From assembly GCA_001873995.1 (NCBI GenBank), contig MNVR01000007.1, positions 1-64,000 of the forward strand: DNA of 64,000 nucleotides. The letters are read 5' to 3'. Positions 12,868 through 61,897 of the stretch are shown one piece after another. The notes under the pieces were generated by a model. It searched no databases and was not told the DNA's origin. It was given only the letters and a program-made list of their open reading frames with translations. Numbering within the stretch: position 1 is the stretch's first letter; each line of letters opens with the position of its first letter. This DNA is from Candidatus Phelpsiimicrobium noxiivivens. GTDB taxonomy: Bacteria; Omnitrophota; Gorgyraeia; Velamenicoccales; Velamenicoccaceae. Made by a program: the position numbers and the translations under genes.

Positions 12868-12937
12868 TATATAGTTAATGGTTAAAATAGTTTTTGTTCT
12901 GCCTATAGACTATGGGCTATTAACTATAAACTATTTC
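12868..12937. repeat. Inverted element with 7-bp periodic arms
   Basis: Five consecutive heptamers of the form CTATNNN run from 12903 to 12937. The opposite arm (about 12868-12890) carries complementary ATAGTT/TGGTTAA units. It fills the space between rny and the phosphoesterase gene and reaches the rny stop codon. It has the same layout as the elements at 51669 and 60491. Confidence 0.65.
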
Positions 12938-14510
12938 ATTTTGCGTATTCTATAGCTCGCGTTTCACGGATGACCGTCACCTTTACCTGGCCCGGATACT
13001 CCATGCCCTCTTCTATTTTCTTACGGATATCGCGCGCAAGGACAATAGCATCGCTATCGGATATCTTTTCCGGCTGCACAATGACGCGTATCTCTCTTCC
13101 TGCCTGAATGGCAAACGCCTTTTCAACGCCCTTAAAAACGTTGGCGATAGACTCTAATTTTTCCAGGCGCTTGACGTAAGTCTCCAGCGTTTCTCTGCGC
13201 GCGCCCGGGCGCGCCGCGCTTATAGCGTCAGCCGCGGCAGCAAGCACACCATAAAGGCTGGTCTTTTCCACTTCCTCGTGATGCGCTTCAATACCCTGGG
13301 CCACTACTTCGCTCTCTCCAAACTTCCTGGCAAGATCCGCTCCAAGCTTGGCATGCGTGCCTTCTATCTGCTGATCTAAGGCCTTACCTATATCATGCAG
13401 AATACCTATCCTGCGAGCCAACTTATGGTCAAGACCTAATTCGTCAGCCATGACGCCCATTAGAAGGGCGACTTCCCTGGAATGTTGAAGGGCGTTCTGG
13501 CCAAAACTCGTCCTATATTTAAGCCTGCCGATGAGCTTGACGAGTTCTGGATGCACACTGTGCACGCCGATCTCAAAAAATATCTTTTCGCCTTCTTCTT
13601 TGATCTTAATATCCATTTCCTTTTTGGTCTTTTCAACAACCTCTTCAATGCGGCCGGGATGTATCCTGCCGTCTGATATCAGGCGCTCCAGCGAAAGACG
13701 CGCGACTTCACGCCTAACAGGGTCAAATCCTGAAAGCATGACCGCCTCAGGCGTATCATCAATGATAACATCAATGCCTGTAGCCATTTCAAAGGCTCGA
13801 ATATTACGGCCCTCGCGGCCTATTATGCGGCCTTTCATGTCGTCGCCAGGAAGGTTAACGATGCTGACCGTTGATTCAACCGCGTGCTCCACGGCGCAAC
13901 GCTGAATAGCATAACCGATGATCTCTCTTGCTTTTTTATCAGAAGTCTCTTTTATCTCATCTTCATTCTTTTTTATTAAGACCGCCTTTTCCGTGTTTAG
14001 CTCGCTGTCAAGCCTGGACAATAAAAGCACCTTAGCTTCTTCCGGAGACATATTGGAGATCTTATGTAGCCTCTCTTTTTCTTCTAACAAAAGCCTGTTT
14101 AGGTCGTCGCCCTTTGCTTTAAGGGCGTCTTCCTGGGTTTTTAAGTTTCTCGTCTTATCTTCAAGCTCTCTTTCCTTTTTCTCCAGAAGGTCAACGCGCC
14201 TTTCAAGATTGGCTTCTCTCTGAGCTATCCTCTTTTCAATATTGGCTATCTCGTCCCTGCGGTCGCGCGTCTCTTTTTCAAAATCCTGGCGCATCTTGAA
14301 TAACAGGTCCTTAGCCGCCAGCTCTCCTTCTTTACGAATAGCATCTGCGTTCCTGCTGGCTTCATCAACAATGACCTTTGCCTGCATAGTCGCGGTCTTA
14401 AGCCTCTGCTCCCCTAAAGACTTTCTAAAAAATAGATATAGGAAAGAAAGCGCGGCTCCTATTGCTATAAATATAAAACCTAATACATATATGTTGTATC
14501 CTGTGGACAT
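12936..14510 (-). CDS. rny: Ribonuclease Y
   Basis: The 524-residue protein has an N-terminal membrane helix ([20 protein letters not shown]). A long coiled coil spans about residues 40-190. A KH domain follows ([20 protein letters not shown]), then an HD domain ([44 protein letters not shown]). It is the membrane-bound endoribonuclease that starts mRNA decay. A strong ribosome binding site (AGGAGGTAG) precedes the ATG. Confidence 0.97.
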
Positions 14511-14613
14511 GGCGAACTACCTCCTTCTTTATACAAGCCGCCGTGAAAACGGCGGACGGGTAGGCCCTGCTTCTATTTATAAAGATCAGAAGCTTAGCAG
14601 GCCCTATTGTTAC
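14511..14613 (-). other. Structured leader between 5-FCL and rny
   Basis: On the minus strand the spacer holds a long hairpin: GGCCTGC with GCAGGGCC, inner stem CTTCT/AGAAG. A compact CCGCCG-TTTTCA-CGGCGG hairpin without a T-run follows, about 20 bases before the rny ribosome binding site. It could be an attenuator or RNA-stability element for rny. No known RNA family is recognised. Confidence 0.4.
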
Positions 14614-15177
14614 TTACGCAAAGAGGACTTTTGTGACAGAGAGGTCATGAGGTTCTAGAGGAGGGAAATCACGGATTATCTGAAAATCAAAAGCAAGGCC
14701 CACAGTAGGGCACTCTTTAGGCAATTGGCCCAAAAACCTGTCATAATACCCCAGCCCGCGCCCAAGCCTATTGCCCGCCTCGTCAAAGGCGAGGCCGGGA
14801 ACGACTACGAGATCTATTGAATCCAGAGGTATCGGACGTATGTATTCTTCTTTGGGGCGCGCTATGCCATAGGGCCCGGTCTTGAGCTCTGCGTCTAAGT
14901 CCTTAAGCAGAGAAGGTATTATTTCCTTAGACTCTGCTCGGACTACAGGGACAGCGACCCTTTTGCCTTGCTTTATAGTATTCTTGATCATCCTCATAGT
15001 ATCTACTTCTCCGTCAAAAGAAAGATAAAACAGCACCGTCTTTGCTTTCAAAAATTCTTTCAGTAAAAAAAGTTTGCTTGCTATCTTAGAACTTTTTTTA
15101 AGTCTACTTTCCTCCTTATGACTTCTTAGTTTTTTTAGGACTTCCACCCTAAGTTTTCTCTTTTTTTCCTGTATCAT
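14614..15177 (-). CDS. 5-formyltetrahydrofolate cyclo-ligase
   Basis: The product has 187 residues. The N-terminal Lys/Arg-rich helix (KKRKLRVEVLKKLRSHKEE), FYLSFDGEVDT and the C-terminal PGLAFDEAGNRLGRGLGYYD motif are typical of the family. It converts 5-formyl-THF to methenyl-THF with ATP. It overlaps the iscU stop (ATGA). metV lies two genes upstream, so two C1/folate functions are close together. Confidence 0.94.
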   Translation of the reverse strand: MIQEKKRKLRVEVLKKLRSHKEESRLKKSSKIASKLFLLKEFLKAKTVLFYLSFDGEVDTMRMIKNTIKQGKRVAVPVVRAESKEIIPSLLKDLDAELKTGPYGIARPKEEYIRPIPLDSIDLVVVPGLAFDEAGNRLGRGLGYYDRFLGQLPKECPTVGLAFDFQIIRDFPPLEPHDLSVTKVLFA

Positions 15178-15560
15178 GAGCTTACCTGTTTCTTGCGGTA
15201 ATCGTCAATAGCCGCCTTTAGCGCCTCTTCTGCCAAAACAGAACAGTGCATCTTTATCTTAGGCAGGCCGCCTAAAGCTTCGGCTACAGCCTTATTGGAA
15301 ATAGCCAAGGCCTCATCAAGGGTCTTGCCTTTCACTAAATCCGTTACCATGCTGGATGTAGCTATCGCGGCCCCGCAGCCAAACGTCTTAAAACTTACGT
15401 TAACTATCCTGTTATCCTCTACCTTGATATAAAGCCTCATTATATCCCCACAGATGGGATTGCCGACATTGCCTATACCGTTAGCGTCGGGCAATTCTCC
15501 CACGTTGTGCGGGTTTAAAAAATGATCCATCACCTTCTGGCTATATTGAGCGTTATCCAT
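15174..15560 (-). CDS. IscU/NifU-type Fe-S scaffold protein
   Basis: The 128-residue protein starts YSQKVMDHFLNPHNVGEL and carries the three scaffold cysteines in GNPICGDIM, FKTFGCGAAIATSS and IKMHCSVLAEEAL. It assembles Fe-S clusters for transfer to targets. The usual cysteine desulfurase gene is not adjacent here (a palindrome-rich gap and metV lie upstream), so the sulfur donor must be encoded elsewhere. Confidence 0.93.
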   Translation of the reverse strand: MDNAQYSQKVMDHFLNPHNVGELPDANGIGNVGNPICGDIMRLYIKVEDNRIVNVSFKTFGCGAAIATSSMVTDLVKGKTLDEALAISNKAVAEALGGLPKIKMHCSVLAEEALKAAIDDYRKKQVSS

Positions 15561-15573
15561 GGTTTTGTTTGAT

Positions 15574-15690
15574 TGATACCGCTACTAAGCCGCTACGCAG
15601 ATTTCTGGCGCTACGCGCCTAAAATCTGCTTGCTAGTATCGGTATAAATTCGCCCATACAATTTACGTTTACTACCATTCCGTAAATTGT
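15574..15690. repeat. Two adjacent intergenic hairpins
   Basis: The first is nested: outer ATACCG/CGGTAT, inner GCAGATTT...AAATCTGC around GGCG/CGCC. The second is CAATTTACG (about 15659-15667) with CGTAAATTG (15680-15688), a perfect 9-bp stem. They fill the iscU-metV gap, which holds no gene. The second resembles the AACTTACG...CGTAAGTT hairpin upstream of pheT. Confidence 0.5.
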
Positions 15691-15720
15691 GGGCTCATTT
15701 AAATTATCACAAGTAAGCGG

Positions 15721-16386
15721 CTATGTCAATTCTTTCGCTTCCCTTGCTACGCTAAGCGGCTTTGTTGATACCTTGTAATTCTTTGGCGGCAGACGCTTCT
15801 TTAAACGCGAAAGCGTCCCGTTTTCTTTCATTTTCTTATAAATAAGCACCCAGGCGCAATCTCTATTCTTATCTACTTCACACTTACCTTTATTATGGCC
15901 GCCGCATGGCCCATTCAATAGGCCCTTGGAACAACGCGTGACCGGGCATATGCCCTCTGTCAGGTCCAAAACGCACTCACCGCAGCTACTGCACACCTCT
16001 TGAAAATTATTATCTTTATCAATGAGGGCCGCGAAAAGGCTCTCGCATCCAGGCAAAACATCCAAACCTAACCGGTCATTTTCACGGACGCTTTGCGCGC
16101 CGGAACCGCAAGCCAAGACAAGGATGGCGTCAGACTTTTTCAGCGCTTCTTTGTTCTTAGCAAAAGCGGCCTTTACTTGCGCCGCGGCGCAGGTAACATC
16201 AGGCGTGACAAAACCCGTGACTGTTATACCTTGTTTTTTTAAAAATACCGCCATAGCGGCGACTTCCCCTTCGCCTCCTGTCTTACAGGTAGCCGCGCAA
16301 TCGCCGCATCCGACGATAAAAATTTTATTTTTATTCTCCAGCATCTTTGAAATATCTTGCCCGGATTTTTGTTTTGTAATAATCAT
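15721..16386 (-). CDS. metV: Methylenetetrahydrofolate reductase C-terminal-type protein (MetV-like)
   Basis: The 221-residue protein from ATG 16386 is cysteine-rich: IVGCGDCAATCKTGGE near the start, CSSCGECVLDLTEGICPVTR in the middle, and CSKGLLNGPCGG later. This is the MTHFR_C domain found fused to, or beside, MetF in acetogens (MetV), where it binds zinc or Fe-S and assists methylene-THF reduction. No metF lies beside it in this window. It sits just downstream of rarA. Confidence 0.82.
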   Translation of the reverse strand: MIITKQKSGQDISKMLENKNKIFIVGCGDCAATCKTGGEGEVAAMAVFLKKQGITVTGFVTPDVTCAAAQVKAAFAKNKEALKKSDAILVLACGSGAQSVRENDRLGLDVLPGCESLFAALIDKDNNFQEVCSSCGECVLDLTEGICPVTRCSKGLLNGPCGGHNKGKCEVDKNRDCAWVLIYKKMKENGTLSRLKKRLPPKNYKVSTKPLSVAREAKELT

Positions 16387-16415
16387 AAGAATGTTTGTGC
16401 CCCTGTGCGCCAAAA

Positions 16416-16476
16416 GCCCCAGCGTCCCAGTTTAAAGATTTGGCTGGGATCCTGGGGAGCTGGGGTTCTGGGGAAC
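16416..16476. repeat. Inverted element with 8-bp periodic arms at the rarA 3' end
   Basis: On the plus strand four consecutive octamers of the type CTGGGGNN run from 16444 to 16475. The opposite arm (16416-16430) has CCCCAGCG and TCCCAG. The loop (TTTAAAGATTTGG) contains the rarA stop codon. The right arm therefore encodes the last 10-15 residues of RarA (VPQNPSSPGSQPNL). Confidence 0.75.
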
Positions 16477-17832
16477 CAAGTCATGGCTCTTGAGTTCTTT
16501 CAGCCTCTCTTTTATCTTTTTTTCATAACCGATATCTTGGGGATCATAAAACTTAATTCTTTCAGCCATGTAGTCCTGTTCCACATAGTGGCCCGGAAAA
16601 TCGTGCGCGTATTTATACCCATTACCATGGCCCAGCGTGCCGCCATCCGCGGCAGCGTCTTTTAAATGCTTAGGCACCTCCTGCAGGCGGCCCTCCTTCA
16701 CCTCTTTTAAGGCCTTTTCAATACCCAGATACGCCGCGTTGGATTTAGGGCTGCAGGCAACATACACCGCGGCCTGCGCCAAAGGTATCCTTGCCTCAGG
16801 CATACCGACGAATTCAGAGACTTCCTGCGCCGCGTGCGCTAACACCAATGCCTGCGGATCGGCGAGGCCCACATCTTCAGCCGCGCAGATACAGATGCGG
16901 CGCGCGATAAAACGCGGGTCTTCGCCGGCATAGATCATTTTAGCAAGCCAATAAAGTGCCGCGTCAGGGTCTGAACCGCGCATGGATTTAATAAAAGCGG
17001 AAATAGTATCATAATGGCCGTCCTCATCGTGATCATATAACACGGCCTTTTTTTGTATGGATTCCTGCGCGTCTTTCAAAGTAAACAACAGGCTGCCGTC
17101 TTTTGCCCTGGTTTTGCTTCTGATCCCTATTTCTAAAGCGTTGAGGCTGCGCCGGCCGTCGCCTTCGCATATCCTGGCCAAAAACTCCAGCGCCTTTTTT
17201 TCAGCCTCTACCTTTAATGACCCTAAACCGCGCTGAACATCTTGAAGCGCGCGTTCTAATATAGTCAGAATATTTTTTTCGCTAAGCGGCTGGAACTCAA
17301 ATATCAGGGACCGTGACAATAGCGGCGATGTCAGCGCGAAAAAAGGATTTTGCACAGTCGCGCCTATGAGTGTCGCGCTTCCATCTTCTATATCGGGCAT
17401 CAGCACATCCTGCTGCGCCTTATTAAAACGGTGTATCTCGTCAATAAAAATAATGGTCTTCTGCGCCGTCGAGCTTTGCCTTAATTTTGCTTGTTTGATC
17501 ACACGGCGCAGTTCTGCGACGTTTGAGGCAACGGCATTGAGCGGCTCAAAATAGGAGTGGGTGATATTGGCGATGCAGTGGGCTAAAGTGGTCTTGCCGG
17601 TTCCCGGAGGCCCAAAAAAAATGACGGACATCAGACGGTCCGTCTCTATAGCCTTTCGCAAAAGTGATCCCGGGGCTAAAATATGCTCCTGCCCGGCAAA
17701 CTCATCTAAATTAACAGGCCGCATCCGGCTGGCTAAAGGTTCTAGATCTGTAACGGATGCTTTCCCCGGAGAGGTTACTTTTCCGATGAACAGATCGGTG
17801 GAATCTATGGGAAGGGTGGTTCTTTTGGTCAT
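16432..17832 (-). CDS. rarA: Replication-associated recombination protein RarA (MgsA-type AAA+ ATPase)
   Basis: The product has 466 residues. After a 35-residue lead it has SRMRPVNLDEFAGQEHIL, Walker A FFGPPGTGKTT, Walker B TIIFIDEIHRFNKAQQD and the sensor region GATVQNPFFALTSPLLSRS. The C-terminal tetramerisation part (GSDPDAALYWLAKMIYAGED) is intact. It acts at stalled forks. The final residues are encoded by a periodic repeat element, so the natural C terminus has been replaced or extended. Confidence 0.95.
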   Translation of the reverse strand: MTKRTTLPIDSTDLFIGKVTSPGKASVTDLEPLASRMRPVNLDEFAGQEHILAPGSLLRKAIETDRLMSVIFFGPPGTGKTTLAHCIANITHSYFEPLNAVASNVAELRRVIKQAKLRQSSTAQKTIIFIDEIHRFNKAQQDVLMPDIEDGSATLIGATVQNPFFALTSPLLSRSLIFEFQPLSEKNILTILERALQDVQRGLGSLKVEAEKKALEFLARICEGDGRRSLNALEIGIRSKTRAKDGSLLFTLKDAQESIQKKAVLYDHDEDGHYDTISAFIKSMRGSDPDAALYWLAKMIYAGEDPRFIARRICICAAEDVGLADPQALVLAHAAQEVSEFVGMPEARIPLAQAAVYVACSPKSNAAYLGIEKALKEVKEGRLQEVPKHLKDAAADGGTLGHGNGYKYAHDFPGHYVEQDYMAERIKFYDPQDIGYEKKIKERLKELKSHDLVPQNPSSPGSQPNL

Positions 17833-17861
17833 GAAATTTATGCTAATCCTCCCTCGTCAAC

Positions 17862-18089: not shown

Positions 18090-18110
18090 ATTAAAAGCCT
18101 TGTCTATTAT

Positions 18111-18195: not shown

Positions 18196-20256
18196 CTACC
18201 TGAGCGTCAACGATAATTCTTTCACCAGGCCTTCAAGCACATTACTATGCACTAAGTTGATCTCGGCGTCTGTTAATGTCTTTGTATCAGAGCCGTAAGT
18301 AAGCGAAATAGTCAGCCCCCGGGAGCCTCGCGGGACCTCTTTGCCTTGATAACATTCCGATAGAGCGATCGCCTTCAGATAGCCGGCCGCTCTTTTCTCT
18401 ATCAACTCTTTTATCGCGGCATAAGGTGTTACATCTCCGGTTAAAACGCTAATATCGCGCGAAATAGACGGCGTTGAAGCTATCGGCGTAAACACTTTTT
18501 TCAAGTCCGCGACACGCGCTAACGCGCTCAAAGAAACCTCAGCTACAAAAATATCTTTTTTTACCTTTATGCCCCAGCGTTTTTTGACAGCCTCTGACAT
18601 AACTCCTATTGACCCTGCCATTTGGCCGTTAATAAAAATGCAAAAGATGGACGCGCCTGCGGGTTGCGGCTTCACAAAAACATATCCTTTAACCCTTAGT
18701 TCATCAAACAATGATTCTAACGCTCCCTTAAGGTCATATAGCGTATACGGCCTGTAGTCTTTAAGCCACTCGGCGCGCTTATCCCCAGAGAGCAATATAC
18801 CGACAGAGATCGTTTCCTCGGCCTCACCGAATATATGGGCTATTTCAAATATCTCAAAGTTCGGATCATTGCGATTGATGTTAAAAGACGCGCATTCAAA
18901 CAAAGCCGGCAACAAAGTTGTCCGCAACAAGTGATAATCCTGGCTCAGGGGATTGACTAAAGCATTTATACCCGGCGGCACCTGGATCGCGCTTTTGGCA
19001 TAATTTTCTTCGCTTGTGAGGCTATAGGTAATGACCTCTTTAAACCCCATCGCAACAAGCAGTTCTCTGCTTACACGCTCTATTGCCTGGTCCTTAGATA
19101 CTTCCATGGAAAACGGCCTGATCTCAGGAGTCGTCAGAGGTATTTTATCATAACCGTAAGACCTTGCTATTTCTTCAGTTAAATCTTCTGCCACCTTGAC
19201 ATCTTTTCTGAAACTCGGGGCCGTGACTTCAAAAACATCCTGTTTTTTATCCTTCACCACAAAACCTAATCTCTTAAGAATATTTTTTGCTTCTCTGGAA
19301 GTTACGCGGATACTCAAAACATCCACCGCTTCTTTCAAGTCAAACATGATCTTCTGTTTTTTCGGTTGCGCGGGCATGCCTGACTGCCTGGATACAACAA
19401 GCGTTCCGCCGCACATATCACAGATCATTCGCGTCGCCGCGAGCAACCCTGCCCGCACTCCGGGTATGTCAACACTTCTCTCAAATCTGTAAGATGAATC
19501 TGAAACCACTCCAATCGTCCGCGCACCCTGCCTGATCACCACAGGGTCAAAGCAAGCGCTCTCAAGCATGATGTTGACGGTCTTTGACGTTACCTCGCTG
19601 GCCTGCCCGCCCATAATGCCGGCAATTGCAACGGGCTTTTTCTTGTCGGCTATAACAAGCAGGCCGGCTGAAAGCCTTTTTTCTATACCATCAAGCAATA
19701 TAAGACGCTCTCCGTCGCGGGCCCGGCGCACGATAATAGCGCCGCCTTCCAATTTATCAAAATCAAAAGCGTGAAGCGGCTGTCCGTATTCCATAAGGCA
19801 GAGATTGGTGATATCTACCACATTGTTGACTGAACGCAGCCCAACTGAATTAAGCCTCTTTATCAACCATGCAGGGGACTCCGCGGCCTTAACGCCTGTG
19901 ATGAGATTACCATAATAGAGCGGGCAGGCTTTTGTGTCTTCAACTGAAACGGTTAGCCGGTTATCCGGTCGTTTGCCTGTTGTCCTATTGATCTTTTTCT
20001 TTTTTACACCCGTGAACTCGCAAACCCGTGAATTCGCGAACTTCGTATTTGTTATTGCCGCTACTTCGCGCGCAATACCGCGCGCGCTTAACCAATCCGG
20101 CCTATTGGACATAACTTCTATATCATATACCCAATCGCCATCTATCTCTTCAAGAGACGCGACACTTAACCCGGCCATAGTGAGCCTATCTCCCAGCTTT
20201 TCAGGGCTTAACTTAACATCCACAAATTCTTTTATCCAAGAGTAACTGATCTTCAT
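18196..20256 (-). CDS. pheT: Phenylalanyl-tRNA synthetase beta subunit, short form without tRNA-binding OB domain
   Basis: The product has 686 residues from ATG 20256 (MKISYSWIKEFVDVKLSPEK), about 110 fewer than usual. The N-terminal KL-D-RLTMAGLSVASLEEID segment passes directly into DIEVMSNRPDWLSARGIARE, so the EMAPII-type OB domain is absent. The B3/B4 editing region (VNNVVDITNLCLMEYGQPLHAF), B5 and the C-terminal anticodon-binding FDX domain (TPSISRDISVLTG) are present. Residues about 71-102 come from an inserted periodic repeat element. With PheS it charges tRNA-Phe. The gene follows pheS after a 90-base gap. Confidence 0.94.
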   Translation of the reverse strand: MKISYSWIKEFVDVKLSPEKLGDRLTMAGLSVASLEEIDGDWVYDIEVMSNRPDWLSARGIAREVAAITNTKFANSRVCEFTGVKKKKINRTTGKRPDNRLTVSVEDTKACPLYYGNLITGVKAAESPAWLIKRLNSVGLRSVNNVVDITNLCLMEYGQPLHAFDFDKLEGGAIIVRRARDGERLILLDGIEKRLSAGLLVIADKKKPVAIAGIMGGQASEVTSKTVNIMLESACFDPVVIRQGARTIGVVSDSSYRFERSVDIPGVRAGLLAATRMICDMCGGTLVVSRQSGMPAQPKKQKIMFDLKEAVDVLSIRVTSREAKNILKRLGFVVKDKKQDVFEVTAPSFRKDVKVAEDLTEEIARSYGYDKIPLTTPEIRPFSMEVSKDQAIERVSRELLVAMGFKEVITYSLTSEENYAKSAIQVPPGINALVNPLSQDYHLLRTTLLPALFECASFNINRNDPNFEIFEIAHIFGEAEETISVGILLSGDKRAEWLKDYRPYTLYDLKGALESLFDELRVKGYVFVKPQPAGASIFCIFINGQMAGSIGVMSEAVKKRWGIKVKKDIFVAEVSLSALARVADLKKVFTPIASTPSISRDISVLTGDVTPYAAIKELIEKRAAGYLKAIALSECYQGKEVPRGSRGLTISLTYGSDTKTLTDAEINLVHSNVLEGLVKELSLTLR
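19950..20045. repeat. 8-bp periodic inverted element inside pheT, in frame
   Basis: On the plus strand CGGTTANC-type octamers run from 19950 to about 19989. After a T-rich centre, ACNCGNNA-type octamers run from 20008 to 20045. The 96 bases equal 32 codons and stay in frame with pheT, adding a Lys/Arg/Thr-rich insert right after the shortened N-terminal domain. Confidence 0.75.
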
Positions 20257-20346
20257 AAATTCCATTCCAAATCCCGACACCCTACGGGCGCGGGATAATT
20301 CCGGCAAATAACTTACGTCGCTTAAACTCCGTAAGTTATGCCGTCA
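20257..20346 (-). other. pheS-pheT spacer with hairpin
   Basis: The spacer contains ATAACTTACG (about 20308) and CGTAAGTTAT (about 20329), a 10-bp inverted repeat of the same type as that in the iscU-metV gap, and a CCCG...CGGG pair nearer pheT. No gene is seen. Confidence 0.45.
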
Positions 20347-21459
20347 TTAAAATTGTTCAAGAAATCTTATGTCATTCTCAAAGAACATCCTTATATCCTT
20401 AATGCCAAACTTCAACATGGCTATGCGTTCCACGCCCATGCCAAAAGCAAATCCTCGCCATACCTTCGGGTCGCACCCGCCGGACTTTAAAACATAGGGA
20501 TGCACCATACCGCAACCCCCGATCTCAAGCCAGCCGCTTTTTTTGCACACCGGGCAACCATAGCCCGCGCATAAAAAACACGCGATATCAACCTCGGCAG
20601 AGGGTTCTGTAAAAGGGAAAAAGCTAGGCCTGAAACGCAATTTTGTTTTCTCGCTGAACATCTCTGTCGCGAAGGCCATTAAAACGCCCTTCAAGTCCGA
20701 AAACCTTATTTTTTCGCTCACAGCGATTCCTTCAACCTGATGGAACATAAAAGAGTGCGACGCATCAACAGCGTCGGGCCGATAGACCCTGCCAGGCACA
20801 ACAACAGCCATCGGCGGATGGCATGCCTTAAGGGCGCGGATCTGCGCGGGCGAGGTATGGCTTCTTAATAACAGTTTACAAGTTCGCGAGTTCGCGAGTT
20901 CGCTAGTTCCTAAAGTTTTATTTTTTGGACCTAGGCTCGTCAGCTCGTCAACTCGAGAACCTGAGAACTCTTTTATGTAGAATGTGTCAAACGCGTCTCT
21001 GGAAGGATGTTCAAGCGGAATATTTAAAGCTTCAAAATTATTATATTCTGTCTCAACTTCCGGGCCTTCAAAGGCCTTAAATCCTAGACGGCCGAATATA
21101 TCGCAAATCTCTGTCTCTACCTGCGTCAGGGGATGCTGGCGGCCAAGCATTGGTTTTTTGCCGGGAAGGGTTATATCCAGATCTAGCGCGCCATGAGAAG
21201 TTAGCGGATCACGCGACGCTGACAAAGCCTCTTCTTTCTGACGCAATGACTCTTCTATTGCCTGCTTGAGGACATTGAGGGATGCGCCAAAAACCTTTCT
21301 TTCTTCCTGCGGCAAAGCCGAGAGCTTTGAGAATAATTCGGCAATAATGCCCTTGCGTCCAAGATACTTAACACGTGCCGCGTCAAGAGCTACCTTGTCC
21401 TGGCAAGAATTTATATGATCCTTTGCCTCTGCCGCAATGGGCGCATGATCAAAAGGCAT
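20347..21459 (-). CDS. pheS: Phenylalanyl-tRNA synthetase alpha subunit
   Basis: The product has 370 residues. An N-terminal coiled coil is followed by the class II motifs GRQHPLTQVETEICDIFGRL, FEGPEVETEYNNFEALNIP, HPSRDAFDTFYI, RSHTSPAQIRAL and SFMFHQVEGIAV, then GFAFGMGVERIAMLKFGI (motif 3). Between FYIK and LLRSHTS lies an extra block of about 30 residues (SGSRVDELTSLG to ELANSRTCK) encoded by a periodic repeat element. Homologues pass directly between these strands, so the insert forms a loop. Confidence 0.96.
   Translation of the reverse strand: MPFDHAPIAAEAKDHINSCQDKVALDAARVKYLGRKGIIAELFSKLSALPQEERKVFGASLNVLKQAIEESLRQKEEALSASRDPLTSHGALDLDITLPGKKPMLGRQHPLTQVETEICDIFGRLGFKAFEGPEVETEYNNFEALNIPLEHPSRDAFDTFYIKEFSGSRVDELTSLGPKNKTLGTSELANSRTCKLLLRSHTSPAQIRALKACHPPMAVVVPGRVYRPDAVDASHSFMFHQVEGIAVSEKIRFSDLKGVLMAFATEMFSEKTKLRFRPSFFPFTEPSAEVDIACFLCAGYGCPVCKKSGWLEIGGCGMVHPYVLKSGGCDPKVWRGFAFGMGVERIAMLKFGIKDIRMFFENDIRFLEQF
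20881..20970. repeat. 8-bp periodic inverted element inside pheS, in frame
   Basis: On the plus strand three AGTTCGCG-type octamers plus a degenerate fourth occupy 20881-20912. After an AT-rich centre come GCTCGTCA twice, then ACTCGAGA and ACCTGAGA (20935-20966). At 90 bp it equals 30 codons and keeps the pheS frame open. Confidence 0.8.
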
Positions 21460-42822: not shown

Positions 42823-42844
42823 TTTCCGCCCACTGGGCAGAAAA

Positions 42845-42872
42845 TGCCAAACGTCAAGATCCAAATGTCAAA
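42845..42872. repeat. Solo heptamer arm (7-bp period)
   Basis: Four consecutive heptamers of the type TGNCAAA lie between gyrA and tRNA-Glu. They match the left arm of the elements at 51669 and 60491, but no right arm is seen here. Confidence 0.55.
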
Positions 42873-42895
42873 TTAATGATCAATGCTGCTTAACC

Positions 42896-43145: not shown

Positions 43146-43148
43146 ACC

Positions 43149-43226
43149 AATTAAGGGGACGGTCCTAATTGTCAATTAAGGGGACGGTCCTAATTAAATG
43201 CGACCGAGACTTAAGGGGACGAGACT
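43149..43226. repeat. Array of GGGGAC-type palindromic repeats
   Basis: AATTAAGGGGACGGTCCTAATT occurs at 43149-43170 and 43174-43195; its outer six bases and the inner GGAC/GTCC part are self-complementary. A variant, ACTTAAGGGGACGAGACT, follows at 43209-43226. It resembles repeats associated with REP-type (Y1) transposases, but no such transposase is in the window. Confidence 0.65.
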
Positions 43227-50052: not shown

Positions 50053-51666
50053 ATGAGACATAAAGCCGCAATATTATTAGGCCGCCATTTTATTGTTTTT
50101 GCCCTGAGCTTTATGGCAGCCGGCTCTGTTTATCCCGAATATTTTTCTGAAGAGTATGGTTCTCCACGCAAGTTGGATATGGTGGTCGGCGAGTCTAAGG
50201 TGTTGGCAGTCTCCAATCCAAAGAGGGTGGCGATCGGAGACCCTGCTGTGGCAGATGTGGCCGGCGCAAGCTCTACAGAGATCATTATTTCGGCAAAGGT
50301 AGCCGGCGAGACGAACCTGCAGGTCTGGGATGATATGGGACAGAGAGAGGTCATCATCAACGTCTTTATTGAAGACCTCACCAAACTAAAAACCAGGTTA
50401 GAAGACTTGTTTTGGACAGCGGGCATACGCGGGATAACATTTCAGGTGGGCGAACAGGAGCGAAAGATATTTGTGCTTGGCGATTTGCCCCTGCGCAAGA
50501 AAGAGGTCGTGACCCAGCTCCTTGGTAATTTTAAAGACAAGATCATTAACCTTCTGACCTATTCCGAAGACAATCCTCTTGTTGAGATGGACGCTCAGAT
50601 TATGGAGATCTCAAAGACCGCTGTTGATAGGCTCGGCATTGACTGGTCGCAAACAGTGACTTTTAATGAGATCCAACCCGGGGCCCCTGCGGCTACGGCA
50701 GGGACAGTATTTCCACAGCATACCCTGGACCGGCAGATGGGCGATCTGCTAAAATCAGTGTGGCAGTCAAAGTTTAACAGGACGACGCTGACCGCCACCC
50801 TGAATATATTAGAGAAAGACAATCTTGCTCGCACGCTGGCGCGGCCTAAACTTGTGGCATTGAGCGGCAGTGAGGCTAAATTTTTGGTGGGTGGGCAGGT
50901 CCCGATTATCGCAAACGTTTCTGTTTCCAGCGGCACAACCACGACCTCCATTGATTACGTTGATTATGGCATAAAGCTTAATGTTAAACCCGAGGTAAAA
51001 GAGACAGGCGATATTCTTTGCAAGATAGAAGTTGAGATAAAGGATATTGATGCCGCAAACTCCATAACTATCCCATCCGGAGGGGGCATCACGACATCGC
51101 CCGGGTTTAAAACGCGGAATGCCTCAACCCAGCTTTATTTAAAAAATAACCAGACGATATTCCTCGCGGGTTTGATCAATAACGCGCAGACTAATGATTT
51201 AAACCAGGTTCCGGGTCTGGGAGATATCCCTATTTTGGGGGCTTTGTTCAGGTCCAAAAATTTTCAAGTTGGCGACACGGAACTTGTCATTTCAATTACG
51301 CCAAGGATAGTAAATTACGGCGATATGCGCCAGGATATACAGGATCTCTCATCGTCTAAAAGAAGCGCGGATGAAGAACCCGCGGATACCTATATCCGCG
51401 CTGTCCAGGAGACGATATTAAAGAACGTCAGTTACCCGCTTGAGGCCCAGCGCGCCAATTTATCTGGCGGTGTGGTGTTGAGCCTGCACTTATTTTCCAA
51501 CGGCCAGCTAGCCGGAGTCGTAGTGAATGAGTCTTCAGGCCATAAGTTACTGGACAACGCCGCGATATTTACTGTAAAGCGGCTCGCTCCTTATCCCGCT
51601 TTTCCCAAGGGCCTGCTGTTAAAAGAGATCTGGGTAGAAGTGCCCATCACATACCAGTTAAGTTAG
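50053..51666 (+). CDS. cpaC: CpaC/RcpA secretin with C-terminal TonB domain
   Basis: The product has 537 residues. After a signal peptide, the BON-like N-domain (VLAVSNPKRVAIGDPAVADV, STEIIISAKVAGETNLQVWD) leads to the secretin part (VEMDAQIMEISKTAVDRLGI, ARPKLVALSGSEAKFLVGGQ, QVPGLGDIPILGALFRSKNF, VISITPRIV). From about residue 446 a TonB C-terminal domain is attached (SYPLEAQRANLSGGVVLSLH, SSGHKLLDNAAIFTVKRLAP). It forms the outer-membrane pore. The TonB domain is not part of standard CpaC and may contact the wall or another envelope partner. Confidence 0.93.
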   Translation: MRHKAAILLGRHFIVFALSFMAAGSVYPEYFSEEYGSPRKLDMVVGESKVLAVSNPKRVAIGDPAVADVAGASSTEIIISAKVAGETNLQVWDDMGQREVIINVFIEDLTKLKTRLEDLFWTAGIRGITFQVGEQERKIFVLGDLPLRKKEVVTQLLGNFKDKIINLLTYSEDNPLVEMDAQIMEISKTAVDRLGIDWSQTVTFNEIQPGAPAATAGTVFPQHTLDRQMGDLLKSVWQSKFNRTTLTATLNILEKDNLARTLARPKLVALSGSEAKFLVGGQVPIIANVSVSSGTTTTSIDYVDYGIKLNVKPEVKETGDILCKIEVEIKDIDAANSITIPSGGGITTSPGFKTRNASTQLYLKNNQTIFLAGLINNAQTNDLNQVPGLGDIPILGALFRSKNFQVGDTELVISITPRIVNYGDMRQDIQDLSSSKRSADEEPADTYIRAVQETILKNVSYPLEAQRANLSGGVVLSLHLFSNGQLAGVVVNESSGHKLLDNAAIFTVKRLAPYPAFPKGLLLKEIWVEVPITYQLS

Positions 51667-51668
51667 AA

Positions 51669-51792
51669 TGACAAATGCCCAATGCTAAACGACAAACGAA
51701 TTACCAAAGACCAATTGAAAGATTTGGAATTGGTGTTTAATTTGCCTGTCTGCCGGCCAGGCAGGGATTTTGTCATTTGGAATTTGTCATTC
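51669..51792. repeat. 7-bp periodic inverted element with nested palindrome
   Basis: The left arm has TGACAAA-type heptamers (51669-51696), then an 11-mer ending CCAA. The right arm has ATTTGG/ATTTGTC units up to 51792. Inside the right arm is a CCTG-TCTGCCGGCCAGGC-AGG palindrome (51745-51765). The layout matches the element at 60491. It separates cpaC from the cpaE-cpaF fusion. Confidence 0.7.
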
Positions 51793-51812
51793 AACCGTTT
51801 TTGCAGGTGATT

Positions 51813-57528: not shown

Positions 57529-57558
57529 TTGACATATATGTATATAATATGATATATT
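57529..57558 (+). promoter_or_regulatory. Pilin array promoter
   Basis: A perfect TTGACA (57529-57534), an 18-base spacer and TATATT (57553-57558) start the pilin cluster. The surrounding sequence is very AT-rich. The expected leader to the first pilin is about 180 bases. Confidence 0.7.
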
Positions 57559-57655
57559 TCTTGTGCGACAAAAATCGGTATCGGATCGGCAGATCCATTA
57601 TAAAAATCTGATGAAATACGCCACAGTAAACAAAAGATTTCGATATTGTATTTTC

Positions 57656-57724
57656 ACCGGGTCGTCATTTGCCGATCTCCTGCCTATTGGTAGGCAGGTA
57701 ATAATTGACAAAAGACGATCCGGT
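57656..57724 (+). promoter_or_regulatory. Two-level stem in the pilin leader
   Basis: ACCGGGTCGTC (57656-57666) pairs with GACGATCCGGT (57714-57724, one G-U). Inside is CCTGCCTA-TTGG-TAGGCAGG (57679-57698). It could be a regulatory RNA structure upstream of the pilins or an inserted palindromic element; the inner part resembles the palindrome at 51745. Confidence 0.55.
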
Positions 57725-57745
57725 ATTTTTTTGCAGATGTTAATA

Positions 57746-57943
57746 ATGAGATTAAAAAAGTTTTTCAAAAGCTGTAGTTTAAGAAATGGCGGCCAAGCTA
57801 TCGTAGAGTATTTTATTTTGCTTGTCCTCATAGCTGCTCTTACAATTATTGGAGGTTCTGTTTTGTTCGGCAAGGTAAAAACAACAACTAACAATTTCAG
57901 GGACGCAGCTTATGAGAAAATGGCTCCATATCCGGGCCCGTAA
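57746..57943 (+). CDS. Flp-type pilin 1
   Basis: The 65-residue protein has a basic leader ending NGG and then QAIVEYFILLVLIAALTIIG, the prepilin peptidase site (G before Q, Glu at +5 in this numbering) plus hydrophobic helix of Flp/Tad pilins. The tail is short (YEKMAPYPGP). An ATG at 57737 is also possible. It is the first of nine tandem pilin genes. Confidence 0.8.
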   Translation: MRLKKFFKSCSLRNGGQAIVEYFILLVLIAALTIIGGSVLFGKVKTTTNNFRDAAYEKMAPYPGP

Positions 57944-57972
57944 GTATAACAATTTTATATCAGAGCGTTGCC

Positions 57973-58125
57973 ATGAATAAAAGAGCTGGCCAGTCAGTTT
58001 TGGAATACGCAATCTTAATATCTGCTTTATGCGCTGTTTATATTACCATGTCAGCTTATATGCATCATGCTGTGAATGCAAAATTGCTTTCTGTGCAGGA
58101 CAGGGTTAATGAAGCGGTGCGATAG
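57973..58125 (+). CDS. Flp-type pilin 2
   Basis: The 50-residue protein MNKRAGQSVLEYAILISALC has a 5-6 residue leader cut after Gly and the Q-S-V-L-E-Y-A pilin start, then AVYITMSAYMHHAVNAKLLS. It is below routine ORF length limits. A weak GTTGCC precedes the ATG. Pilin-like in every feature except its very short tail. Confidence 0.78.
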   Translation: MNKRAGQSVLEYAILISALCAVYITMSAYMHHAVNAKLLSVQDRVNEAVR

Positions 58126-58133
58126 GAGTTCGT

Positions 58134-58346
58134 ATGAGTCATGTGAAGAAATTGTTCAGCGCGGGACAATCAGTTTTAGAATACGCGATGTTGCTTGCTA
58201 TTGTCAGCGCGGCCTTTATAACTATGGCCGTTTATGTGAGAAGGGCTATGCAGGGCCAGCTTTATCAAATTGAAAAGAGGACTGTTGCAAAGGCAGAGGT
58301 AAATACGTATGCAACGTCCGATGGTTGTCCGCCAATGTGTATTTGA
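58134..58346 (+). CDS. Flp-type pilin 3
   Basis: The 70-residue protein (SHVKKLFSAGQSVLEYAMLL) has the cleavage site after AG. The helix continues AIVSAAFITMAVYVRRAMQG. Two cysteines close to the C terminus (DGCPPMCI) could form a disulfide. The ribosome binding site GGAG lies 7 bases upstream. Confidence 0.82.
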   Translation: MSHVKKLFSAGQSVLEYAMLLAIVSAAFITMAVYVRRAMQGQLYQIEKRTVAKAEVNTYATSDGCPPMCI

Positions 58347-58388
58347 TGGGCGCGTTATTCCTGCCAGAGGCGGGCTCAAGGAGAAAAC

Positions 58389-58562
58389 ATGAGAACTAAA
58401 AAAGGTCAGATAATGATTGAATACGCGGTTATGTTCACGGTAATAGTCGCGGCTGTAATAGTTGCCTCAATTATGTTGATCAAACCGTCTTTGAACAAAT
58501 TTTTTGGTACGACAGCAAGGGTTATTGACAACGCGTCTACCAGGGTTGAAAGCAATTTTTAA
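58389..58562 (+). CDS. Flp-type pilin 4
   Basis: The 57-residue protein MRTKKGQIMIEYAVMFTVIV continues AAVIVASIMLIKPSLNKFFG. The IKPSLNKFFG segment is shared with pilin 5 and sets these two apart from the Y-x-x-RG-x-QG type. Cleavage after KKG is expected. It is too short for routine ORF lists. Confidence 0.8.
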   Translation: MRTKKGQIMIEYAVMFTVIVAAVIVASIMLIKPSLNKFFGTTARVIDNASTRVESNF

Positions 58563-58645
58563 TCCAGAAAGGATAGGCCTGCTCAATTCCATTAAGGGCA
58601 GGGCCTAATGAAATATTCCGGAGGGAGAGAGGGGGTGGAAAACAG

Positions 58646-58912
58646 ATGAAGAAAGTGTTTGGCAGGGTAGGGCAAAGCACGTTGGAATATGTAATAGTGT
58701 TGACGGCGATCGTGGCGGCTATTCTTTTTGCAGCCGCGCAGTTTATCAAACCGTCTGTTAACAAAATATACGGCGATGCTGGTACAACGTTGAATGCGAG
58801 CGGAACGTTGTTTGGTAATGCCGTAGGCGGAGGTTTGAACCTTACAGCAGGCGCGGCAGCAGGCGCGGCAGCAGGCGCGGCAGGCGCGGCAGCCGGTTCA
58901 ACCGCGATATAG
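58646..58912 (+). CDS. Flp-type pilin 5 with Ala/Gly repeat tail
   Basis: The 88-residue protein (KKVFGRVGQSTLEYVIVLTA) has IKPSVNKIYGDAG after the helix, like pilin 4. The tail is a low-complexity AGAA-type sequence encoded by tandem 12-bp repeats (58847-58891). A strong GGAGGGAG ribosome binding site lies upstream. Confidence 0.8.
   Translation: MKKVFGRVGQSTLEYVIVLTAIVAAILFAAAQFIKPSVNKIYGDAGTTLNASGTLFGNAVGGGLNLTAGAAAGAAAGAAGAAAGSTAI
58847..58891. repeat. In-frame 12-bp tandem repeat in pilin 5
   Basis: GCAGGCGCGGCA occurs three times in a row (58847-58882), followed by a 9-bp partial copy. Each unit encodes AGAA, so changes in copy number keep the frame and change only tail length. Confidence 0.8.
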
Positions 58913-58956
58913 TAAGAAACGCCAGATTTTTTTGGCGAGAGGAGGTGTTAACGAGA

Positions 58957-59310
58957 ATGCTTAGATGGTTAAACGCAAAGAGAGGCCAGAATACAGCCGA
59001 ATACGCTATCCTTATCGGTGTTATCGTGGCAGCGGCTATCGCTATGCAGATATATATAAGGCGCGGTATGCAGGCCAGAATAAAAGATGCTGTTGATTTT
59101 ACCAGGACAGCGGATGACGACGCGGGCAACGGATTGTTTAATCAGAGCCAGTATGAGCCGTATTATCTGAATACCACTTTTGCAACGACTCAGAGCGGCA
59201 CGAAGAGCCAAGAATTGCAGGTGGGCGGCGGTGTTGTTGTGAACGCTATCAGCGAAGGGACGCAGAGGTCAGGGAACCAGACATACTCTAATTATATGCT
59301 GGGTAACTAA
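58957..59310 (+). CDS. Flp-type pilin 6 (long tail)
   Basis: The 117-residue protein from ATG 58957 (GGAGG 11 bases upstream) has AKRGQNTAEYAILIGVIVAA and the QIYIRRGMQARIKDAVDF continuation. The tail of about 70 residues is Thr/Ser/Asn/Gln-rich. A GTG at 58945 is a less likely start. Confidence 0.85.
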   Translation: MLRWLNAKRGQNTAEYAILIGVIVAAAIAMQIYIRRGMQARIKDAVDFTRTADDDAGNGLFNQSQYEPYYLNTTFATTQSGTKSQELQVGGGVVVNAISEGTQRSGNQTYSNYMLGN

Positions 59311-59341
59311 CAAATAAGCAAATTTAAGGAGGTGAAAATAG

Positions 59342-59659
59342 ATGCGCAAGTGTTTTAGTAAAAGAGGCCAGAGCACTCTTGAGTACGCGGTTTTAATAGT
59401 AGTCATAATCGCGGCTCTTATAGCTATGCAGGTATATTTAAAGCGTGGCATACAGGGCCGCATGAGAGAATCTTCTGACCAAATAGGAGAGCAGTTTTCA
59501 CCGGGTTACACAGTTTCTAACCGCGTGACGAACACGTTCTCGAACACGCTGGAAACAACGGACGCGTATTCTACAACGACGGAGATACTAAATCAGTTCC
59601 AGAACGTGACCGGAGCAGAGAACGTAATGGCGGCTGCTAATGAGTACTGGGGAAAGTAA
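59342..59659 (+). CDS. Flp-type pilin 7 (long tail)
   Basis: The 105-residue protein (KCFSKRGQSTLEYAVLIVVI) continues MQVYLKRGIQGRMRESSDQI. The tail is Thr/Asn-rich (NTFSNTLETTDAYSTTTEIL). An ideal AAGGAGGTG precedes the ATG. Its last base overlaps the next start (TAATG). Confidence 0.87.
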   Translation: MRKCFSKRGQSTLEYAVLIVVIIAALIAMQVYLKRGIQGRMRESSDQIGEQFSPGYTVSNRVTNTFSNTLETTDAYSTTTEILNQFQNVTGAENVMAAANEYWGK

Positions 59660-60093
59660 TGTTAAGAAAATACGCGAACACTTTGACTGCGCTCAGTGTA
59701 AACAGACAGAGTAATGCAAGGGCGCGCGCCCTCCGCGCGCCCGCATTATTCTGTCTGTGGCGCGGCGTGAGAGCTTGTCTTGAGCGCAACCGAAGGGGCC
59801 AACAGGCCATAGAATACGCTGTGTTGATATCAGCTATCATCGCGGCTTTATTATTCATGTATATGTACGCTAGGCGTGGATTGCAGGCGGCTATAAAATC
59901 GTCGGCTGACCAGATAGGCCCGCAGAGCCACAACGAGCCTTTGGCCGGGGTTGTGAAGACAACAGGCAATGCCACCATGTCAACAGTTACAAACGATTTG
60001 ACGCAGGTCAATAAGATCGGAGAGGAAACATATTATGATTATCAATCCGTCTCAACATCGCAGGGGCTTTCGGAGACGCATACGCAGGAGTGA
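59659..60093 (+). CDS. Flp-type pilin 8 with hairpin-encoded leader extension
   Basis: The 144-residue protein has RRGQQAIEYAVLISAIIAAL at about residue 45, so its leader is about 45 residues instead of 5-15. Most of the extra leader is encoded by a large inverted repeat (59702-59758). Because the leader is removed by prepilin peptidase, the mature pilin is unaffected. The tail carries QIGPQSHNEP and a Thr/Asn-rich part. Confidence 0.83.
   Translation: MLRKYANTLTALSVNRQSNARARALRAPALFCLWRGVRACLERNRRGQQAIEYAVLISAIIAALLFMYMYARRGLQAAIKSSADQIGPQSHNEPLAGVVKTTGNATMSTVTNDLTQVNKIGEETYYDYQSVSTSQGLSETHTQE
59702..59758. repeat. Large inverted repeat in the pilin 8 leader
   Basis: ACAGACAGAGTAATGC-AA-GGGCGCGC pairs with GCGCGCCC-GCATTATTCTGTCTGT, a 24-bp stem with a two-base bulge and one G-U around a 7-base loop. 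It is flanked by a TTTGACTGCGCTCAG copy (59682) and its inverted counterpart (TTGAGCGCAACCGAAGG, about 59781), related to the unit at 61960. Confidence 0.8.
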
Positions 60094-60097
60094 TTAG

Positions 60098-60478
60098 ATG
60101 ATGCGAAAAAGAGGCCAATCCGTTATGGAAACAGCTGTTCTTATATTAATTATTGTAAGCGCTCTTATAGCTATGCAGGTCTACTTAAAGCGCGGCATAC
60201 AGGGCCGCTTGAGAACCAGCATTGACAGTATAGGCGAACAGTATGACCCGCAGGCAACAAGCTCAAATTTTACTGTAGGCCACACTAGCAATGTAGAGAC
60301 AACAACGAACACAAGCACACAGCAAAAGGTTGTGAGCGGCGGCTATGATGACCTGGGTGGCGGGATGTGGACCGGCGCTCCTCCTGTAAAGGAAAATGTT
60401 ATTACAACAGACTCAAGGATCGAAATATATTATGACAACACAACAAAAACCGGCTATGAGACTGTCGCAAACCCATAA
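60098..60478 (+). CDS. Flp-type pilin 9
   Basis: The 126-residue protein starts MRKRGQSVMETAVLILIIVS; it has Thr where the other eight pilins have Tyr after the conserved Glu. It shares MQVYLKRGIQGRLRTSIDSI with pilin 7. The tail is Thr/Ser/Asn-rich with two Gly-rich turns. ATG 60098 or the adjacent ATG at 60101 may be used. Confidence 0.85.
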   Translation: MMRKRGQSVMETAVLILIIVSALIAMQVYLKRGIQGRLRTSIDSIGEQYDPQATSSNFTVGHTSNVETTTNTSTQQKVVSGGYDDLGGGMWTGAPPVKENVITTDSRIEIYYDNTTKTGYETVANP

Positions 60479-60489
60479 TTGAAGAAGAA

Positions 60490-61836
60490 ATGACAAATGC
60501 CAAATTTCAAATGACAAATGGAGCCCCAATGACCAAAGTCAAATTTAAAAATTTGTATTTGGGATTTCGTTTGGGTTTTGGATCTGGGATTTCGAGATCA
60601 TATAAAGGACAGGCCTTGGTTGAGCTGGCTGTGTTCGGCGCATTTTTTCTTATACTGCTGGGCGTTTTGTTATCTTATGGCCTTAAATATAACTTTCAGC
60701 AAAAGGCCCAGATGACAGTTTTCAGGCGCGCTTTAAAAATAGCTTCAGATCAAGGCAGAGGCATTGGCGCCGCGATGATTTTGGAGGACCGCGCTATACC
60801 CGATCCAACTACGATGTTTGGCATAGGTTTTACCGCTCCCATTGTGGCTTCAGCTTCAGTCCAGCGCGATCATATGATGCATGCCCAGCCTGTTGACGAG
60901 GATTCCTTAAGCGGAACTGTGATGGATATTCAGACAAGCCGAGACGGCTCAGAGGAGACACAGGCGTGGATGCGGCGCATATATAAGACAGCTGCTTTTC
61001 GGGTTGAATATTTGGTGCCCAAAGAAAACTTAGACAAATATCGGGAGATCTTTGGCTCCTCTCTCCTTGCTTTGAAAAGCGGCGGTTCAATAGAGGATCA
61101 GGGCTCATGGGCGTCAACGAGTGACGATGAAGCTGATATGACTCTTCTGGAAAACGGTAGCAAAGCCTATACTGCCATAAGGATTATTGATACCTGCTCC
61201 GGAGAAATTTCTGATTATGATACTTGTTATACACAGGCGCGCCAGTTGGTAGATCCGGAATTTTGCAAGAGAAAATGTGAGCTGGCTAAGGGGCCAGGTT
61301 CTGATACTGACTGCGCCAGCGTATGCAATATTGAAACTAATCCGCCAAACCAGACGGACAGAATATATGACGACTTAAAGGGAGGCGCCTGGTATGCGGC
61401 AGATTGGGAGGGTCCACAGCCTTCTGTCGCGCCTCCTGCCGTGCAGGTAAATCCTAACTATAACTTTCCATATTTAAGCGGATATAAAAACGATGGGACT
61501 ATTGTGCCGGCATTATTCAGCTTTTCAGGGGCGAGGTCCGCGGGTGACCCAGTGAAGCAAATGGCCATGGGCCTTCATAGCGATATGACACAAAATGTTG
61601 TAAGAAACGAATCAATGGCCAAGACAGAGACGACAGGCGCTATCTCAACGCAGGAAGACGCTGTTTGGACGGATACATTGAATAGAACGCTCGTCCATCA
61701 GGATAATATAAATGCCAACGGATTTGAAAAGATCCCGGCTTCCGGACAACCGGGTGATTTCGTAAACGTGAGAACGCGCAATGTTGTGTCAGATGTTTCT
61801 GGTTCATTGAGCCAGGCGCAGGTGACTGTAAAATAA
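60490..61836 (+). CDS. TadE-like pseudopilin with repeat-derived N terminus
   Basis: The 448-residue protein has YKGQALVELAVFGAFFLILL near residue 39, a prepilin-type signal with Glu, then GLKYNFQQKAQMTVFRRALK. The large C-terminal part contains two Cys clusters (CSGEISDYDTC; CKRKCELAKG...CASVC). The first ~35 residues (MTNAKFQMTNGAPMTKVKF and on) are encoded by a periodic repeat element, so the present start codon lies in the repeat. TadE-like minor pilins help pilus assembly. Confidence 0.82.
   Translation: MTNAKFQMTNGAPMTKVKFKNLYLGFRLGFGSGISRSYKGQALVELAVFGAFFLILLGVLLSYGLKYNFQQKAQMTVFRRALKIASDQGRGIGAAMILEDRAIPDPTTMFGIGFTAPIVASASVQRDHMMHAQPVDEDSLSGTVMDIQTSRDGSEETQAWMRRIYKTAAFRVEYLVPKENLDKYREIFGSSLLALKSGGSIEDQGSWASTSDDEADMTLLENGSKAYTAIRIIDTCSGEISDYDTCYTQARQLVDPEFCKRKCELAKGPGSDTDCASVCNIETNPPNQTDRIYDDLKGGAWYAADWEGPQPSVAPPAVQVNPNYNFPYLSGYKNDGTIVPALFSFSGARSAGDPVKQMAMGLHSDMTQNVVRNESMAKTETTGAISTQEDAVWTDTLNRTLVHQDNINANGFEKIPASGQPGDFVNVRTRNVVSDVSGSLSQAQVTVK
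60491..60594. repeat. 7-bp periodic inverted element providing a gene start
   Basis: TGACAAA-type heptamers (60491-60518) and an 11-mer ending CCAA form the left arm. ATTTGG-, TTTGG- and GGGATTTCG-type units form the right arm up to about 60594. The ATG at 60490 begins one base before the first heptamer. Confidence 0.7.
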
Positions 61837-61840
61837 TTTA

Positions 61841-61897
61841 GCGCGTTGGTGAATAAATAAGTTGGCGAATTGGCGAGTAAACGAGTTGGCGAGCGGG
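61841..61897. repeat. 8-bp periodic element between the TadE-like genes
   Basis: Octamers AGTTGGCG, AATTGGCG, AGTAAACG and AGTTGGCG run from 61860 to 61891, with GTTGGTGAATAAAT-like half units just before. It lies directly upstream of the next gene's ribosome binding region. Confidence 0.65.

Follow-up and report, generated by a model that had tools for sequence, protein, structure and literature searches.

Eight miniature inverted repeats, spread over positions 12,868–61,897 of a 64,000-nucleotide stretch (the window) of the Candidatus Phelpsiimicrobium noxiivivens genome (Omnitrophota; contig MNVR01000007.1), are very probably gene-less forms, akin to miniature inverted-repeat transposable elements (MITEs), of a mobile element of the intervening-sequence (IVS) type that lies outside ribosomal RNA (rRNA). 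A complete element comprises an arm of about five tandem 7-mers (sometimes 8-mers), a small gene of the IVP/S23 four-helix-bundle family, and a second arm in which that unit is inverted. Its targets are gene junctions and tolerant loops of protein genes, with a 5-bp target duplication, and the whole is predicted to fold into an RNA or DNA hairpin.

Periodic inverted arms and the gene between them

Arrays with a strict short period are a genuine feature of the host genome (assembly of 1.56 Mb in 39 contigs, 91% complete; 1.50 Mb analysed, counting an array where at least 16 of 20 positions match at a given period). There are 55 period-7 arrays against 5 in a simulated genome, about a tenfold excess, and 13 period-8 arrays against 6, about twice. 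Periods 14 and 21 are also elevated because they are multiples of 7; the remaining periods equal simulation or exceed it a few-fold. Arrays with reverse-complement units at most 120 bp apart (settings w18/T12) form 17 pairs at period 7 (simulated 0, 0 and 0) and 6 at period 8 (simulated 1, 0 and 0), and an opposite arm stands within 150 bp of 28% of period-7 and 48% of period-8 arrays, for a control rate of 2%. The core ATAGT recurs 48 times at a spacing of 7, and no other spacing yields more than 6 occurrences; CCCCAG recurs nine times at a spacing of 8 and never at the rest. An earlier note on this DNA had described a shared layout of tandem 7- or 8-mers at eight places in the window; periodic sequence is present at all eight, exactly there or a few bases off, and the genome-wide excess of paired arms shows that such structures do not occur at chance frequency. 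Two host contigs terminate in pure GTTATAG arrays, of 16 units (C34, 34893–35012) and 9 units (C38, 1–70), and long heptad arrays therefore break the assembly. An extreme expansion was seen in the whole genome of an Omnitrophota relative (G096), with 198 exact matches to CTAGTNNCTAGTNNCTAGT in 1.8 Mb.

Each arm family combines a constant core with one to three free bases per unit at strict spacing (ATAGTNN, CAAATNN, GTAATNN, CAGAGNN, CTGGGGNN and GAGTTNNC), and genomes have their own dialects: ATAGT plus two A/T bases in the host, ATAGTC plus any base in others. Pairing from arm to arm runs through the constant bases. The two arms order their variable bases almost independently of each other (44 pairs, median p 0.46, mean z 0.6), so the structure consists of one unit arrayed twice, in opposite directions, and is not a perfect palindrome. 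Strict hairpin templating, in which one arm is copied from the other, was rejected as a general rule because of this near-random unit order. Stops in all three frames of one strand occur in 55% of arms, against 36 ± 5% for permuted units, and would shield the end of an upstream gene.

The link to a gene was first met in a relative, where a four-helix-bundle gene (PF05635, 23S_rRNA_IVP) has an array touching its start codon. In the host genome, 4/4 PF05635 matches adjoin period-7/8 arrays that had been listed before the gene search; likewise, arrays located beforehand at 5606–5631 and 6059–6084 of another genome's contig (G121:C14) bracket an IVP gene at 5680–5997. With IVP open reading frames (ORFs) located by motif, their start approximated as the first ATG, and one best locus taken from each of 30 Omnitrophota genomes, an array lies at the gene edge in 29/30 and on both sides in 23/30, compared with both sides for 7 of 1149 control ORFs of at least 150 residues from one genome. 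The corresponding figures are 16/17 and 14/17 in array-rich Omnitrophota genomes and 20/28 and 13/28 in other phyla (Smithella, Desulfobacterales, Bacteroidota, Aerophobetes, Chloroflexota, Nitrospirota, Ignavibacteria, Kiritimatiellae and Calditrichaeota). The association also holds on cyanobacterial plasmids, and the pooled sets that include these give 76/87 and 60/87. Period 7 is about 12-fold denser at IVP gene edges than in the rest of the same loci, an enrichment that other periods do not consistently share. The median flanking arm is 5.4 units long, and a few bases separate the arms from the start and stop codons. This gene, the owner of the arms, was missed by the earlier note.

As that note had proposed, one architecture is kept while the unit changes between copies. 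The unit differs from one IVP locus to the next, and across the 30 Omnitrophota loci the two arms of a locus match as reverse complements at 0.655, against 0.428 ± 0.076 for mismatched partners and 0.430 in direct orientation. Differences at IVP codon positions 1/2/3 (0.27/0.17/0.52) reveal purifying selection, from which it follows that the protein matters to the element. Unit similarity tracks IVP relatedness (Mantel r 0.22, p 0.0005) and is random below about 50% protein identity; the unit is therefore inherited with the gene and changes fast, in both arms together. The idea that a mechanism builds periodic arms, rather than copying one sequence, is compatible with these data, with the amendment that units are inherited over short range with the IVP lineage and turn over completely below about 50% identity. 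The two best IVP copies of G096 have related arm units, ACTAGNG and ACCAGAG, one base apart in both arms. Several genomes (G003:C52, G007:C77, G175 and G168) hold between 6 and 20 IVP genes, and some of these genes lie together in a stretch of a few kilobases.

Insertion sites and gene-less copies

Because Omnitrophota relatives, at 70–75% identity, are too divergent for exact junctions, near-identical cyanobacterial plasmids were compared instead, and these bear out the earlier suggestion of insertion by providing empty sites at 96–97% identity. Plasmid C of Trichormus variabilis is filled where plasmids of Aulosira, Fremyella and others (about 97% identity) are empty; its junction reveals a 428-bp insert with GTAAT duplicated. 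In Nostoc sp. ATCC 53789, another insertion duplicates TTCTA and turns the stop codon of the upstream gene from TAG to TAA. Arm length shifts by whole units, the Scytonema copy being 14 bp shorter, exactly two units of one arm, and one plasmid copy has decayed within its gene. Gene-less TCAGGAG hairpins also vary in presence among the same Nostoc plasmids, one of them nested in another, with a possible TTTAA duplication; the clean 5-bp duplications are confined to gene-bearing copies. Neighbours in annotated plasmids are protein genes (cas6/cas4, cas10/cmr3, nrdB/nrdA and Tra genes). Several IVP elements (L346, L351 and L391) sit inside plasmid CRISPR-Cas operons, at the cas6/cas4 and cas10/cmr3 junctions, and in Pseudanabaena ABRG5-3 (L387) a different heptad array occupies the cas6/cas4 junction.

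Gene-bearing and gene-less copies share units within one genome or plasmid. The unit of the host's own IVP element on contig C19 is present in 23 of 94 gene-less arrays, for an average of 1.9 with foreign IVP units; in a one-contig genome (G034), the unit of its sole IVP gene occurs in 8 of 13 arrays (foreign mean 0.4). Window copies at 12903, 20008, 20881, 20932 and 61860 exceed the 99% null when compared with resident IVP arms: the 12867–12936 unit scores 0.69 (null 0.48) against the C19 arm, and the 20008 arm and the 61858–61892 unit score 0.63 (null 0.45) and 0.58 (null 0.44) against the arm on contig C21. Gene-less forms are the more numerous. As in MITEs, they are short, lack a gene and have ends in common with a longer element of the same genome; the end-acting transposase by which MITEs are also identified is missing, the complete elements carrying none. 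Deltaproteobacterial genomes (L269, L270, L277 and L278) repeatedly contain a conserved CAAATNN element of 150 bp whose core is fixed (AATCACAATGACCAAAAT...GTTTTGGTCATT), and another genome (G053, L304) holds an IVP gene with CAAATN-like arms.

The closest named genomes with this pheS belong to Candidatus Omnitrophota. The 8-mer hairpin in pheS adds about 32 residues, in frame, to a variable loop (alignment with 19 relatives). Among the relatives, this loop holds other units (GTGTCAG, GTCCACA, GGATCGA and GGTTAGCC) or is repeat-free, and the two genomes of one genus (g3) differ in unit, which indicates a tolerant site where repeats have been gained or replaced more than once. Searched against its own genome, the insert has a sole other match, the C21 arm upstream of the IVP gene. 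Rickettsia palindromic elements have a conserved sequence, form in-frame palindromic insertions in protein genes and are not known to have periodic arms. The earlier comparison with them is upheld as to landing places and the tolerated in-frame insertion in PheS; of the two, compared by description, only the present elements have periodic arms.

The window copies (Table 1) range from strong (20868 and 51662) to doubtful (42845 and 19950). Inverted arms, claimed for all eight, are present in most of them; 42845 and 61860 are in essence a single arm. Folding likewise supports part of the set. Two copies beat shuffled sequence by far (20868–20990, z −3.8; 51662–51800, z −3.4) and two moderately (12862–12945, z −2.2; 16400–16480, z −1.9), 60480–60600 and 61840–61960 do so weakly, and 42830–42880 and 19940–20045 fold no better than shuffles. 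The only known RNA families found in the window are tRNAs and 6S RNA, and the hairpins match none. A GC-rich palindrome of the CCTGCCTGCCGGCAGGCAGG type occupies the loop of several heptad hairpins (window 51742–51770, the L091 pheS insert and the host's contig C37 at about 18.1 kb) and looks like a second dispersed palindromic family. At 43148–43195, CAATTAAGGGGACGGTCCTAATTGT stands twice in tandem, both copies perfect, and resembles the repetitive extragenic palindromic (REP) sequence of RAYT transposases.

Table 1. Periodic elements and their host genes in the window
Feature	Unit (period)	Position	Arms	Strand	Context
Gene-less hairpin	CTATNNN/NNNATAG (7)	12867–12936	~12867–12899, 12901–12936	.	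Between two minus-strand genes
Gene-less hairpin	CCCAGNN(N)/CTGGGGNN (8)	16410–16474	16410–16430, 16443–16474	.	3' end of minus-strand ORF 16432–17832
pheT		18196–20307		−	Bears the 19943–20041 element
Weak 8-mer element	GGTTANCC/ACCCGTGAACTCGCAA (8)	19943–20041	19943–19974, 20008–20041	.	Within pheT
pheS (phenylalanyl-tRNA synthetase alpha)		20347–21459		−	Bears the 20875–20972 insertion; translation, alignment to 19 relatives
Gene-less 8-mer hairpin	AGTTCGCG/CTCGTCAA (8)	20875–20972	20875–20912, 20926–20972	.	In frame within pheS
One-armed remnant	CAAATNN (7)	42848–42874		.	Between the end of a plus-strand ORF and tRNA-Glu
Gene-less hairpin	TGNCAAA/TTTGNCA (7)	51668–51793	51668–51714, 51762–51793	.	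Begins right behind a stop codon
Gene-less hairpin	CAAATNN/ATTTGNN (7)	60485–60595	60485–60521, 60543–60595	.
One-armed 8-mer array	GAGTTGGC (8)	61858–61892		.	Right behind an ORF

Mechanism and alternative readings

If the palindromes are gene-less forms of an IVP element, the IVP pentamer may bind the periodic hairpin and be required for the movement or protection of the element. As complete elements have no transposase gene, this role in movement rests on association, that is, on linkage and selection. Gene-less copies would be mobilised in trans, and the cutting and joining enzyme would be supplied by the host or by another element. Slippage, which explains the arm length changes, may re-make or homogenise arms and so drive the rapid drift in unit; homogenisation within the hairpin and rebuilding at insertion are both candidates for keeping the two arms matched. 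A wider proposal is more tentative, and we hold it as a possibility short of even chances: that these form a class of transposable element spread across the bacteria, in which period and symmetry, not sequence, mark the ends for recognition; that the IVP pentamer reads inverted 7-bp-periodic hairpins whatever their unit, or helps to build them; and that this class is the common source of the tandem heptamer arrays long noted in cyanobacteria, Xanthomonas, Geobacter and others.

Several observations weigh against an IVP element, beginning with the missing transposase gene. Both clean 5-bp duplications belong to related insertions of the TCAG subfamily, on cyanobacterial plasmids and not in Omnitrophota, and at a third site 4/5 bases of the duplication match. 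The window units CAAATNN and CTGGGGNN lack an IVP partner in the assembly, which is 91% complete, two of the four host IVP genes are damaged, arm-less IVP genes exist (for example, in Oscillospiraceae and Scalindua), and the IVP search gave no match in three array-bearing genomes (G011, G106 and G120).

Plain polymerase slippage, expanding heptamers anywhere and pairing them through occasional hairpin correction, would account for the whole-unit changes in Scytonema and for Coxiella strains with 2 or 3 units (PMC4990558), and many bacteria have heptamers as their most frequent long simple repeats (PMC4692102, PMC4679880). It predicts neither a gene between the arms, nor insertion with target duplication, nor a spacing-specific core with hypervariable bases and pairing through constant bases only; as the whole story it is very improbable and strongly disfavoured. 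We regard as slimmer still the prospect that the arrays are binding sites of a global DNA-binding regulator (IHF/HU-like), the role suggested for the paired octamers and heptamers of Geobacter metallireducens, which have the same layout, several unit classes per genome and opposite-strand pairs at variable distance (PMC2700814). A constant core with free positions would suit such sites; units that vary across genomes and even among the IVP copies of one genome, copies within pheS and pheT, and presence that flips between plasmids about 97% identical would not.

Mobilisation as REP-like elements by Y1/HUH (IS200/RAYT) transposases, whose genes are present in 12/12 array-rich genomes, fares slightly better than either and is still highly unlikely. 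HUH transposition is not known to yield a target duplication, contrary to the 5 bp seen here, and no array lies within 1.5 kb of any of the three host Y1 genes; a Y1 transposase as carrier, and REP-RAYT membership, were rejected on both grounds. We rate retro-mobility through a reverse transcriptase, with IVP as a relative of the Avd protein of diversity-generating retroelements, no higher than the regulator reading. Some IVPs have weak but real similarity to bAvd (44.7 bits, cut-off 40), yet the PF00078 reverse transcriptase is absent from 9/12 array-rich genomes, including the one-contig G034, and both a helper role and retroelement membership were discarded for that reason. A phage origin was set aside after tblastn gave no phage IVP and a single narrow query confirmed none in viral contigs. 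The Omega-type heptad-binding repressor of plasmid pSM19035 was considered as the 7-bp reader and dropped once the IVP link emerged.

Relation to known repeats and significance

The earlier statement that no named element has this pattern is not supported, since precedents exist in Coxiella, Geobacter and Xanthomonas (PMC4990558, PMC2700814, PMC4692102). In the 23S IVS of Coxiella burnetii, an S23p ORF is accompanied by a stem of 28 bp and by GACAGAT heptamers, three in tandem, whose number varies between strains (PMC4990558). It shares with the complete elements described here an IVP/S23p gene in the loop, stem-forming terminal inverted repeats, a length of about 430 nt and number-variable heptamers beside the start codon. 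It differs in location: plasmid neighbours are protein genes, and the copies of the window occupy pheS, pheT and the gaps between genes, not a helix of an rRNA gene. Here, moreover, both arms are periodic, units are copy-specific, there are more gene-less than gene-bearing forms, and a target duplication of 5 bp is seen. The PF05635 ORF of an IVS is present in complete elements and absent from the gene-less window copies; stem-forming terminal inverted repeats are present. A survey of rRNA in the Candidate Phyla Radiation (CPR) found IVP ORFs within rRNA inserts and does not mention heptamers (PMC11270868).

In G. metallireducens, tandem octamers (GTTGCTYN) and heptamers (MTYCTGA) were assigned to classes 1–3 of 'global regulator binding sites' (PMC2700814). 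Compared by description, the opposite-strand pairs of tandem 7/8-mers, variable distance and several classes per genome are the same; no IVP or insertion link was drawn there. Xanthomonas and Nostoc carry GGGNATC heptamers, which in Xanthomonas include inverted GGGAATC pairs; convergent inverted pairs number 70–75 per Xanthomonas genome (PMC4692102). These too are tandem heptamers with variable positions and convergent inverted pairs, differing in having one unit per genome and in being treated as G-quadruplex repeats; neither an element nor a gene was recognised. Xanthomonas campestris is the source of the IVP structure 2GSC. By analogy, the Geobacter and Xanthomonas repeats look to be the present structure, described with its gene unnoticed. 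The TAACTGA repeats of Beggiatoaceae, tandem heptamers just upstream of start codons, sometimes in ORFs and common to several phyla (PMC4679880), have a single unit and almost no inverted pairs. Within the open-access literature, we found heptamers tied to an IVP protein solely in the Coxiella 23S IVS paper (PMC4990558), and no paper there that links IVP genes generally to periodic arms or shows movement.

The S23/IVP family, whose structure was solved in 2006 as a pentamer, is an orphan to which, to our knowledge, no function has been assigned. An IVP element with periodic arms would merge three puzzles into one mobile element: the excess of heptamers in bacteria, this orphan family and the unexplained intervening sequences of rRNA. 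A very common hypothetical protein would gain a testable function, and odd in-frame inserts in essential proteins would be explained. It also raises the question of how period and symmetry are kept while the end sequence changes in nearly every copy.

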